Shown one piece after another: positions 16,091-38,447 of a stretch of DNA of 64,000 nucleotides; position 1 is the stretch's first letter, and each line of letters starts with the position of its first letter. The position numbers were made by a program, and so were the translations under genes. This stretch comes from Cyanobacteriota bacterium SRBZ.bins.94.201705. Lineage in GTDB: Bacteria > Cyanobacteriota > Cyanobacteriia > Cyanobacteriales > Cyanobacteriaceae. The DNA lies in contig JAUQQP010000044.1 of NCBI GenBank assembly GCA_030549855.1, positions 308,196-372,195 on the forward strand, given 5' to 3'. A model generated the notes under the pieces. It was not told the origin of the DNA. It did not search any database and worked only from the letters and a program-made list of their open reading frames with translations.

Positions 16091-16435
16091 ATGAACAACA
16101 AACCCGAAGGTTTCTTGGAAAAGGCTTTTTACCTGGGAGTGGGGCTGGCCAGCCTAGCTGTAGAAAAAGTCAGTGCCAGTCTTGGAGAGGTTAATCAAAA
16201 TCTGCAGGAATTGAAACAAAAAGCGGCTGAATTTCTTCAGGAAACTGATTTTCCTCAAAAACTACAGCAACTGGCCGATGAGATGGTAGCAAAGGGCAAA
16301 ATTACTACTGAAGAAGCGCGCCAATTCGTCCAACAAATTCTCTCTGAAAATTTCCCTCCCTCTTCCCCAGACGCTTCCCCTTCCTCTGGAGAACCCCGTA
16401 TTATCGATATTGAGATTATAGACGAGGAAGAATAA
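16091..16435 (+). CDS. Small helical protein, phasin-like in layout
   Basis: A protein of 114 residues that I do not recognise by name. Residues 5-75 look like amphipathic helices, with a glycine-containing hydrophobic start (FYLGVGLASLAVEKV) and a charged, Gln/Glu-rich middle. The tail is Pro/Ser-rich and ends in a very acidic stretch (EIIDEEE). The layout recalls phasin-like or membrane-associated helical proteins seen in cyanobacteria (inference). A TTG 42 bases upstream is in frame, but the ATG gives the natural start and follows a -10 box at a sensible distance. Confidence 0.65.
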   Translation: MNNKPEGFLEKAFYLGVGLASLAVEKVSASLGEVNQNLQELKQKAAEFLQETDFPQKLQQLADEMVAKGKITTEEARQFVQQILSENFPPSSPDASPSSGEPRIIDIEIIDEEE

Positions 16436-16529
16436 TAATACAGCTTTTCTCCCCTTTCTCCTCTCTCCTCTCATTTATCCCTTTCTTTTCCTATTTGCAT
16501 CTCCCTATATATTGCAAATTAATTTTAAT

Positions 16530-16583
16530 AAAAAAATGCCCAGGTCCGCCCCTGGCAGTCACGTCTCCTGCCGTCCCACTATT
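16530..16583 (-). ncRNA. Candidate small RNA of about 54 nt
   Basis: A minus-strand transcription unit with no reading frame. A promoter (next entry) places the start near 16583. The RNA would have a hairpin GGCAG/CTGCC (16572-16568 with 16558-16554, 9-base loop). An overlapping terminator hairpin CCAGG/CCTGG follows (16555-16551 with 16544-16540) and then seven T residues at 16536-16530. The two stems share two bases and may be alternatives. I cannot assign it to a known family; size and layout recall cyanobacterial Yfr RNAs, but the Yfr1 signature ACUCCUCACAC is absent. Confidence 0.55.
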
Positions 16584-16589
16584 ACCTCT

Positions 16590-16618
16590 ATGTTAGCGCG
16601 GCCCGGGAAAAATGTCAA
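16590..16618 (-). promoter_or_regulatory. Promoter of the candidate small RNA
   Basis: On the minus strand a perfect -35 TTGACA (16618-16613), a spacer of exactly 17 bases and a -10 TAACAT (16595-16590). It starts 62 bases after the stop of the PHP-domain gene on the same strand, so it is independent of that gene. Confidence 0.6.
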
Positions 16619-16680
16619 GGGGTAGGGGGAAAATTTTTGGTAAAATGTTATCCTTTTGGGGGATAGGGTGGACGGGGAGG

Positions 16681-17400
16681 TTATAAACGGACTAGAATAT
16701 TGGAACCATGAGTATCAGTACCACAGGTGGTGTAGAGGTTGTATTCTTTTGCTAGGAGTAGGGCGAGGGAAGTTTCTGTGGGACTGGGAAGCCAGGGATT
16801 GGGGTTACCATAGGCATAATAGGCTTCGATGCCGTCAATACCCAACCTATAAGCCTCGAGGATTAACTCTTCGCCACGACGACGATAACGGAAGGGATGG
16901 GCAAGGATGGCTAAACCGCCAGCAAGATGTATACTATTGATGACGTTTTCAGCCTTGGCAGATTCTCCCTGTGGGGTTTCGCCGGTAAGATAGTCTCTCA
17001 TGTTATCATCCTGGGGATTGAAAGCATAACCAAGGAGGTGAATAGAAGTACCATTTAAATCAGCTGTAATCTCAACTCCAGTCCAAATTTGCGGCAGTAG
17101 TTGAGGGGGGTAAAGGGTTGCGGCTTTTTCTATCCATTGTTTGGCCCTTTCAAACCCCTTTATGGTATGATGGTCGGTGATGGCTAGACCTTTTAATCCT
17201 ATGGTGATAGCCTGTTCCATCAGTGCCTCTGGTGTAAGTTGTCCATCAGAACAGGTAGTGTGGAGATGGAAATTATAATGGTAGGGGCAACTATTGACGT
17301 CTATAATTCTCCACACCGCCGTTAGCGTGTCTCTATCCTGACTTTTCTCCTTGTTTCTCGTGGCGGGTAGGATTGCAGTGGTTTCTTTCCCCAGTAACAT
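16681..17400 (-). CDS. PHP-domain metal-dependent phosphoesterase
   Basis: A protein of the polymerase and histidinol phosphatase (PHP) superfamily. The metal-ligand motifs appear in order: HLH at residues 45-47, ITDHHT around 75-79, GVEITA around 107, LAHPFRY in the last third and GTDTHGS near the C terminus. Together these complete a trinuclear metal site. Stand-alone PHP proteins of this size often hydrolyse nucleoside or oligonucleotide phosphates; the substrate cannot be read here. A weak hairpin TATCC/GGATA (16649-16665) lies just after the stop. Confidence 0.85.
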   Translation of the reverse strand: MLLGKETTAILPATRNKEKSQDRDTLTAVWRIIDVNSCPYHYNFHLHTTCSDGQLTPEALMEQAITIGLKGLAITDHHTIKGFERAKQWIEKAATLYPPQLLPQIWTGVEITADLNGTSIHLLGYAFNPQDDNMRDYLTGETPQGESAKAENVINSIHLAGGLAILAHPFRYRRRGEELILEAYRLGIDGIEAYYAYGNPNPWLPSPTETSLALLLAKEYNLYTTCGTDTHGSNILVRL

Positions 17401-36853: not shown

Positions 36854-37291
36854 ATGAAATACTCCCTTCCCTTGATTGGATGGCGAGAATATGTTTGTTT
36901 ACCCCAACTGGGTATTGAAAAAATCAAGGCCAAAGTTGACACCGGCGCGAGGACGTCCGCACTACATGCCTATCAAATTCATACCTATCAAGAAGGGGAC
37001 CAACATATGGTAGAATTCAAGGTGCATCCCCTTCAAAGGCAAACCCATCTTACTGTTGTTTGCACTGCCCCTCTGTTAGGTTACAGAAAGGTTACTAACT
37101 CGGGGGGGCATGCCACCATTCGTCCTGTCATCCTCACTTCTGTAAGACTGGGGGAGTATCAGTGGCAAATTGAACTAACCCTCACTAATAGGGATGTGAT
37201 GGGTTTTCGGATGTTGTTGGGGAGAGAGGCAATCCGTCGTAAGTTTTTGGTGGATGCCGGCCATTCTTTTATATACGGTCGTCATCCCTAG
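36854..37291 (+). CDS. RimK-associated aspartic-protease-like protein (COG4067)
   Basis: A protein of 145 residues of the 'ATP-dependent zinc protease' family COG4067, a retropepsin-like fold found with RimK. The hallmark is KAKVDTGARTSALHA near residues 27-41, the D-T-G-A active-site-like loop, then VTNSGGHATIRPVI and MLLGREAIRRKFLVDAG. In Pseudomonas a homologue (RimB) trims glutamate tails that RimK adds to ribosomal protein S6; that role here is inference. A rimK gene lies 23 kb downstream. The ATG at 36854 is chosen over an in-frame TTG at 36836. It overlaps the convergent small gene by about 23 bases. Confidence 0.82.
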   Translation: MKYSLPLIGWREYVCLPQLGIEKIKAKVDTGARTSALHAYQIHTYQEGDQHMVEFKVHPLQRQTHLTVVCTAPLLGYRKVTNSGGHATIRPVILTSVRLGEYQWQIELTLTNRDVMGFRMLLGREAIRRKFLVDAGHSFIYGRHP

Positions 37292-37565
37292 TATTTTGAA
37301 TTTTGTCTTCTCTCCCTCCTTCCTCCCCCTCTTTCTCTTCTGTTTTTCTTTTTATTCCCTCCTCTTCCAGTGGTTTCCTCCTCTCCCCAATTTGTTTTAT
37401 ATTCTCTCTTTCGATTTCCTCAATTTCTCTTTGTAACATTTCCACTCCCATCCGAAAAAAACGGGATGAGTTTTCTCCTGGCAGCTGGGCTTTAGCTTGA
37501 GGAAAAAGCCAAAAAGGAGATAAAAGCCAAGGCAAAAGCCAGATAAATCCTTTCCGCTTAAACAT
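37269..37565 (-). CDS. Small exported charged protein next to metal transporter
   Basis: A protein of 98 residues with a clear signal peptide (RKGFIWLLPWLLSPFWLFPQAKAQ) and a possible cleavage after AKA. The mature part is a highly charged helix, rich in Glu, Lys and Arg (MLQREIEEIERENIKQIGER), likely a coiled coil. AAGGGGG lies six bases before the ATG, supporting translation. It starts 18 bases after the metal ABC permease gene on the same strand. No family recognised; it is too short to be the missing substrate-binding protein. A role with the transporter is only positional inference. Confidence 0.6.
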   Translation of the reverse strand: MFKRKGFIWLLPWLLSPFWLFPQAKAQLPGENSSRFFRMGVEMLQREIEEIERENIKQIGERRKPLEEEGIKRKTEEKEGEEGGREDKIQNTRDDDRI

Positions 37566-37583
37566 ATACCCCCTTGTAAAAAA

Positions 37584-38447
37584 CTAAATATTTACCCTTG
37601 ATTTTAATTTTAAATATCCGGATACTATCCCCTGGCTGGGACTAAAGAGAAAACTGAGGCTAAAAAAGCCGGCAGCGACTAAGACAATGGCCGGCCCAGA
37701 TGGTAAATTGAAATAGTAGCTAAGATACATGCCGGTGATACTGGAAATAACCCCTACTATCATTCCCACCCACATCACCTGGTGAAGACGATTTACTAAC
37801 AAATAGGCGGTAGCAGGAGGGGTTATTAAAAGGGATAAAACCAGAATTACACCCACGGCTTTCAGGCTGGCAACAATAGTCAAACCCACTAGAATCATCA
37901 AGCCAGTATCTAGCCAAATTACTGGCAACCCTGCCGCCTCTGCTCCAAGTCTGTCAAAGGTGTAAAATAATAATTCCTTGTAGAATAAAATGACTGTTAA
38001 TAGGACAACCAATCCCACCACTATTGTATCTCTTACATCCCCTGTGCTTACCCCCAGAATATTGCCGAAGAGAAAGTGGTTTAGGTCGATTTTGTTTTCT
38101 TTTTGTACCACAGTAATTAGGATAATGCCAAGGGCAAAAAAACTGGAGAAAACTATGCCCATTGCTGCGTCTTCCTTGATTTTTGAAAAGTTTTTAATGC
38201 CATTTATTATTACTGTACTCAGCAAACCGGCAATTAATGCCCCAAGGAAGATACTGACATGAAAGATGTATGCAGTTGCAACTCCAGGCAACAGAGAATG
38301 ACTAATGGCATCCCCCAGCAAGGCAAGTCTTTGCACCATCAAATAACTACCTACAACGGCACATATTGCCCCCACCACTACTGCTACTACTAAAGCCCTT
38401 TGCATGAAACTATATTGTAAGGGCTCTATTATCCAATTCCAAATCAT
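37584..38447 (-). CDS. Mn/Zn-type ABC transporter permease (MntB/ZnuB family)
   Basis: Integral membrane subunit of a cluster 9 ABC importer for Mn2+, Zn2+ or Fe2+. About eight hydrophobic segments span 287 residues, with the conserved GDAISHSLLPGVA loop near residue 36. It overlaps the upstream ATPase gene by 38 bases. The metal cannot be fixed from the permease; cyanobacterial MntCAB systems use the same families. Confidence 0.88.
   Translation of the reverse strand: MIWNWIIEPLQYSFMQRALVVAVVVGAICAVVGSYLMVQRLALLGDAISHSLLPGVATAYIFHVSIFLGALIAGLLSTVIINGIKNFSKIKEDAAMGIVFSSFFALGIILITVVQKENKIDLNHFLFGNILGVSTGDVRDTIVVGLVVLLTVILFYKELLFYTFDRLGAEAAGLPVIWLDTGLMILVGLTIVASLKAVGVILVLSLLITPPATAYLLVNRLHQVMWVGMIVGVISSITGMYLSYYFNLPSGPAIVLVAAGFFSLSFLFSPSQGIVSGYLKLKSRVNI

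Follow-up and report, generated by a model that had tools for sequence, protein, structure and literature searches.

The site under study lies in a stretch of 64,000 nucleotides from a cyanobacterial contig (hereafter the window), 3′ of a PHP-domain gene on the same strand. A preliminary description had listed a TTGACA, a 17-nt spacing, a TAACAT, two hairpins with a common CC and a run of seven Ts, and all of these were confirmed on the minus strand between 16618 and 16530. The TTGACA (16613-16618) is the −35 element of what we define below as a class A promoter and is kept at the syntenic site of a congeneric genome. The −10 element TAACAT follows 17 nt later (16590-16595). Together the two match 10 of 12 consensus positions, and their placement predicts a transcript start near 16583. 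The 5′ flank GGAC (16573-16576; family consensus GGRC, columns 6-9 of an alignment of 105 copies) leads into hairpin 1 (16554-16572), in which GGCAG (16572-16568) pairs with CTGCC (16558-16554). Hairpin 1 is supported by covariation in the 105 copies and by 24 syntenic pairs. Within it, G at 16567 stands opposite A at 16559, an opposition that is nearly invariant in the family; a bulged G (16560) and one extra pair (A16566-T16561) lie below a purine-rich apical loop. The terminator-like hairpin 2 (16540-16555; CCAGG 16555-16551 with CCTGG 16544-16540) overlaps hairpin 1 by the CC at 16555-16554 and is only partly conserved in the family. It is followed by the T-run (16530-16536), a presumed intrinsic terminator of which four columns are 85-96% conserved among copies, and by an AT-rich tail (16505-16529) with a family consensus of about WWWTGANAANAATNATCAAYA. 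The window copy matches our family model R2 end to end (16500-16581, minus strand, 84.4 bits), and the conserved unit, 16581-16500, thus exceeds the interval 16530-16618 first described.

Taken by itself, the window site is unremarkable. Its fold is no more stable than those of shuffled sequences (z = −0.35), and the 8 kb around it contain 17 promoter-like sites versus 11.1 expected from shuffled sequence (sd 3.5) and nine terminator-like sites versus 11.3 expected. It is comparison that raises the site above chance, through some 80 paralogues, the covariation among them and synteny with a second species. The proposal that this is a free-standing small RNA gene is supported. As described, there is no convincing reading frame at the site, and loops that differ in length by 1-2 nt among copies speak against protein coding. 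The failure to place the RNA in a known family was also borne out. An Rfam 15 covariance search of the window at gathering score returned zero families, a search of 16400-16750 at E ≤ 10 gave only unrelated chance matches, and a search of 20 loci with further copies found only tRNA and tmRNA. The UCCU-core motif of Yfr1 does not occur on the transcript strand from 16583 to 16500, in agreement with the preliminary description.

Copies in one genus and the first hairpin

A BLAST search of the spacer against its own genome returned 43 matches on many contigs, mostly to the transcript body. From 34 own-genome copies, and no congener sequence, we built a covariance model (R1) that detected 64 copies in the own genome (G000) and 37 in the sole congeneric genome examined (G001). 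R1 found zero copies in 38 other relatives, and zero in surveys of 289 other genomes of the order and 385 other genomes of the phylum, which used stricter filters that weak distant members could escape. The second model, R2, was built from all 105 copies. At E ≤ 0.05 it detected 87 copies in the own genome and 55 in the congener; a threshold of E ≤ 1e-3 left 80 and 52. It found zero in 18 relatives. The window thus holds one of some 80 copies of the transcript body that are scattered over a genome of 2.87 Mb, and within the searches made the family appears restricted to one cyanobacterial genus, with two congeneric genomes positive. Phage, plasmid and viral collections gave zero matches, and we rejected an origin from such elements.

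The aligned copies have in common GGRC-GGCAG-loop-CTGCC, a G-rich segment, the T-run and the AT-rich tail. Two subfamilies differ in how the sequence continues, with CCAGGG...CCTGGGC in one and CCAARACAYTTGGGC in the other. Placement is mostly intergenic and includes tandem and convergent clusters. Elsewhere in the window, the convergent gap 37291-37584 has an extreme purine/pyrimidine asymmetry resembling that of a small RNA gap; a second family member was suspected there from this strand asymmetry, and none is present. Two own-genome copies near contig ends, G000:C19:38384-38470 (L071) and G000:C16:35-120 (L082), agree exactly in their upstream sequence, which may mean that the assembly is broken within a repeated member of the family.

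Hairpin 1 is kept by selection as a structure in nearly all copies. Across the 105 copies, 98.9% of its cells are paired. One pair is A-U in 35 copies, C-G in 35, U-A in 32 and G-U in 2 (104 of 105 paired), and another is C-G in 73, U-A in 21 and G-C in 7. The observed number of compensatory cells was reached by none of 500 shuffles. The unpaired G opposite A, beside a bulged G or U, is present in 104 of 105 copies. Wobble cells agree better with the transcript strand than with its complement (12 G·U versus 3 A·C, p = 0.035).

For about 24 copies the congener has an orthologue in the corresponding position, and the flanks of these are mostly 76-88% identical. At 24 syntenic sites with six base pairs each (144 pairs), 124 pairs are unchanged, 13 show double compensatory changes, six have a one-sided change into or out of G·U with pairing retained, and one is broken. 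Double compensation therefore accounts for 13 of the 20 changed pairs, and breakage for one of 20. The orthologue of the window copy (G001:C5:27097-27151) has GGCGG/CCGCC in place of GGCAG/CTGCC, a compensatory change from A-U to G-C, and retains TTGACATTTT. Conservation of promoter and stems in a close relative, on which the preliminary description had made its reading depend, is thus seen for the −35 element and the stem, with a weaker −10 (TACCCT). The 5′ segment is not conserved, and loop letters are often unlike between syntenic orthologues. Five syntenic sites in the congener (L209, L210, L211, L212 and L216) have kept promoter and tail with a hairpin body that is decayed or different, which hints at a wider superfamily or at turnover of the body.

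The second helix behaves differently. It is paired in 61.6% of cells, compared with 98.9% for hairpin 1, and is not common to the second subfamily. It is therefore no family-wide feature, and the earlier suggestion that the two overlapping hairpins act as a switch is left unsupported at the level of the family.

The apical loops are purine-rich yet variable (GACG, GAGG, GGAG, GAAA and others). A CsrA-type sponge displaying GGA was rejected, as GGA is not conserved and GG is followed about equally often by A, C and U. Loops of this kind could instead pair with C/U-rich sites in mRNAs, each subfamily with its own targets, so that hairpin 1 merely presents the loop. Such base-pairing, by which the known multicopy small RNAs NsiR1, FopS and Yfr2 act, fits the purine richness, whereas the differing loops of syntenic orthologues and the unconserved 5′ segment speak against it. 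We regard it as possible though rather doubtful, and as the next most likely mode of action after a shared protein partner. A protein partner is favored because stem geometry and the G·A/bulge are constant while the loop letters vary even between orthologues.

Transcript end, promoters and neighboring genes

The AT tail directly 3′ of the T-run is gapless in all 105 copies, and one of its columns is 99% A. Genome-wide, the tail motif occurs 134 times versus 23 for a reversed control, and tail-like motifs are repeated downstream of copies (121 versus 9.6 in shuffles). Some of these belong to neighboring or convergent copies, and about 20 lie 66-121 nt further on. Second AT-rich tails at 66-121 nt past the first are seen, for example, at G000:C36:14848-14871 (L076), G000:C27:86129 (L064) and G001:C14:4125 (L134); by eye, the segments between first and second tails have no common motif. 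The tail was also considered as an RNA or DNA dyad with a Fur-box-like consensus, and this was rejected as its arms do not covary. Because the tail is conserved beyond the T-run, a transcript end at the T-run, and with it a length of 54-55 nt, is uncertain. The RNA may extend past 55 nt, or the tail may serve as a signal in the DNA or in processing. Taken with the similar motifs found 66-115 nt on in some copies, the conserved tail suggests either a longer transcript or a role at the DNA level for part of the unit. In their 200-nt flanks the copies are pyrimidine-rich upstream (purine fraction 0.3-0.45) and purine-rich downstream (0.6-0.74) for ~100 nt beyond the T-run, as though transcription ran on. 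Convergent pairs with facing or overlapping tails occur in the own genome at C7:8480(+)/8575(−), C38:76625/76781, C29:13383/13580, C39:108019/108247, C14:52519/52743 and C19:38441/38624.

Two promoter classes precede the copies. Class A has the form TTGACA-TANNAT. Under a strict definition (exact TTGACA, 16-18 nt spacing and no more than two mismatches in the −10), it was found upstream of 48 of 105 copies compared with 13 of 2000 control windows. In class B, TGNTANNAT is preceded by an HLR1-like (RpaB-type) box. The 14-mer of this class, TTTACATTTCTTAA, stands 26-28 nt ahead of TGNTANNAT in 36 of the 105 copies, compared with 1 of 1000 control windows. With up to one mismatch it occurs 47 times genome-wide versus 8 for the reversed control. 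By strict criteria 84 of the 105 copies have a promoter and 21 have none.

RpaB activates through HLR1 (KTTACAWW-N2-KTTACAWW) from about −66 to −45 (PMC13421787). The class B box matches 11-15 of the 16 HLR1 positions at about −55 to −40, with a deviating second half-site (TTAACA or TTAATA instead of TTACA), and resembles HLR1 as a candidate RpaB-type site. The region upstream of psaD has a comparable arrangement. Together with this region, HLR1-like boxes noted upstream of an apparent gene for a HU-type DNA-binding protein and an apparent ResB-like gene make up loci L192, L202 and L205.

Among class A copies, identity is 33% over the first 14 nt of the spacer and 74% in the −10 region; between copies generally, the spacer is near random (33-40%) and the −10 region is 74-80% identical, whereas identities in the −35 and the 14-mer are partly circular, as these elements defined the classes. 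Retention of the −10 beside a near-random spacer makes the recent copying of a repeat less likely and favors selection acting on each promoter. This bears on the idea that the copies are miniature mobile or selfish repeats (REP/REPIN-, MITE- or cassette-like), with the hairpin and AT tail as transposase or recombinase recognition sites and the promoter incidental. The many scattered hairpins, the tandem and convergent clusters, the repeated tail-like motifs and the syntenic sites that retain promoter and tail without the body would all suit such an element. At least 24 copies, however, occupy identical sites in both species, promoters stand at fixed spacing although their spacers are randomized, and wobble cells favor one strand. 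REPIN-like inverted doublets are missing, as are matches in the phage, plasmid and viral collections. We therefore consider a mobile repeat improbable.

With respect to neighboring genes, 35 copies lie in convergent gaps, 28 have both neighbors antisense and 21 have both on the same strand. A cis-acting element, either a 5′ leader or a terminator of neighboring genes, would agree with the window copy's position 3′ of the PHP gene and with the few copies that lie within about 120 nt ahead of a same-strand gene. Against this, the gene that follows is in most cases on the other strand, and the majority of copies are directly preceded by a promoter of their own. A leader of the downstream gene was rejected, as no downstream ORF is consistent among copies. 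Overall, we judge a cis element very unlikely.

A proposed mode of action and known systems

Computation established the copy number, the predominance of intergenic sites, structural selection on a hairpin, the two classes of promoter and fixed-site inheritance in two species. The copies share sequence and structure, and 84 of 105 have their own promoter, as in a family of paralogous (sibling) small RNAs. The locus is thus very probably one gene of a genus-specific family of about 80 paralogous, independently promoted non-coding small RNAs. This high confidence concerns a family of real, selected RNA genes and excludes the identity of any partner. Points against it are the ordinary fold stability of the window copy, the 21 of 105 copies without a strict promoter and the weak −10 (TACCCT) of the window copy's orthologue.

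We infer that each gene is transcribed into an RNA of roughly 55-90 nt. The common hairpin, with its 5-bp stem, near-invariant G·A and bulged G or U, one closing pair and purine-rich loop, would be recognized by a single partner common to all copies, for which an RNA-binding protein is the likeliest candidate. That a shared hairpin-binding protein is involved is plausible, and we hold this step tentatively. The many promoters, of the TTGACA type or of the HLR1-like light/redox type, would set the total RNA dose under different conditions. More speculatively, the family could be a genus-specific global RNA system in which about 80 interchangeable structured small RNAs titrate the putative protein by total dose, within a wider superfamily that has the same promoters and AT tail and other RNA bodies; we offer this as a possibility on which we would not insist. 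The family may point to an unrecognized RNA partner in a cyanobacterial lineage, in which that role does not usually fall to chaperones of the Hfq type.

The family seems to be previously uncatalogued, and no sequence link or Rfam match to NsiR1, FopS or Yfr2 and no sequence relation to PsrR1 was detected. NsiR1, the heterocyst-specific small RNA of Nostoc, has 12 copies in a tandem array upstream of hetF with individual DIF1 promoters (PMC9045159). It is similar in its length of about 60 nt, its multiple, diverged siblings and its promoter for each copy (PMC9045159), but forms one array of 12, whereas the present family has about 80 members that are mostly dispersed over many contigs with class A or B promoters. 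FopS of Bacteroides comprises 12-15 paralogous small RNAs per genome that base-pair through a 5′ seed; like the present family they are dispersed, each has its own promoter and all share a motif, and they are associated with an RNA-binding protein (PMC11697453). They belong to a different phylum and use the 5′ seed, while the copies described here have a hairpin in common and are five to six times more numerous. Yfr2, likewise cyanobacterial and multicopy at non-conserved loci, reaches nine copies and is present in all analyzed cyanobacteria (PMC6778093), unlike the present family, which was not found in the 385 other phylum genomes and has no Rfam match.

REPINs are inverted hairpin doublets linked to RAYT transposases and, like REP sequences generally, are numerous, dispersed and intergenic (PMC3116915). 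The hairpins reported here are single and oriented, with dedicated promoters and fixed-site inheritance. PsrR1 is a cyanobacterial small RNA within the RpaB regulon (PMC13421787) and acts on the transition to high light. In the present family, by contrast, the candidate HLR1-like box stands at an activating distance.

By these comparisons, the family appears exceptionally large for paralogous small RNAs. The known multicopy families compared here have up to 9 (Yfr2), 12 (NsiR1) or 12-15 (FopS) members, versus about 80 in this 2.9-Mb genome. A one-genus family of about 80 whose structure is still under selection would be evidence that small RNAs are able to expand in the manner of a gene superfamily, and its copies would form a natural set for asking how they share or divide function.
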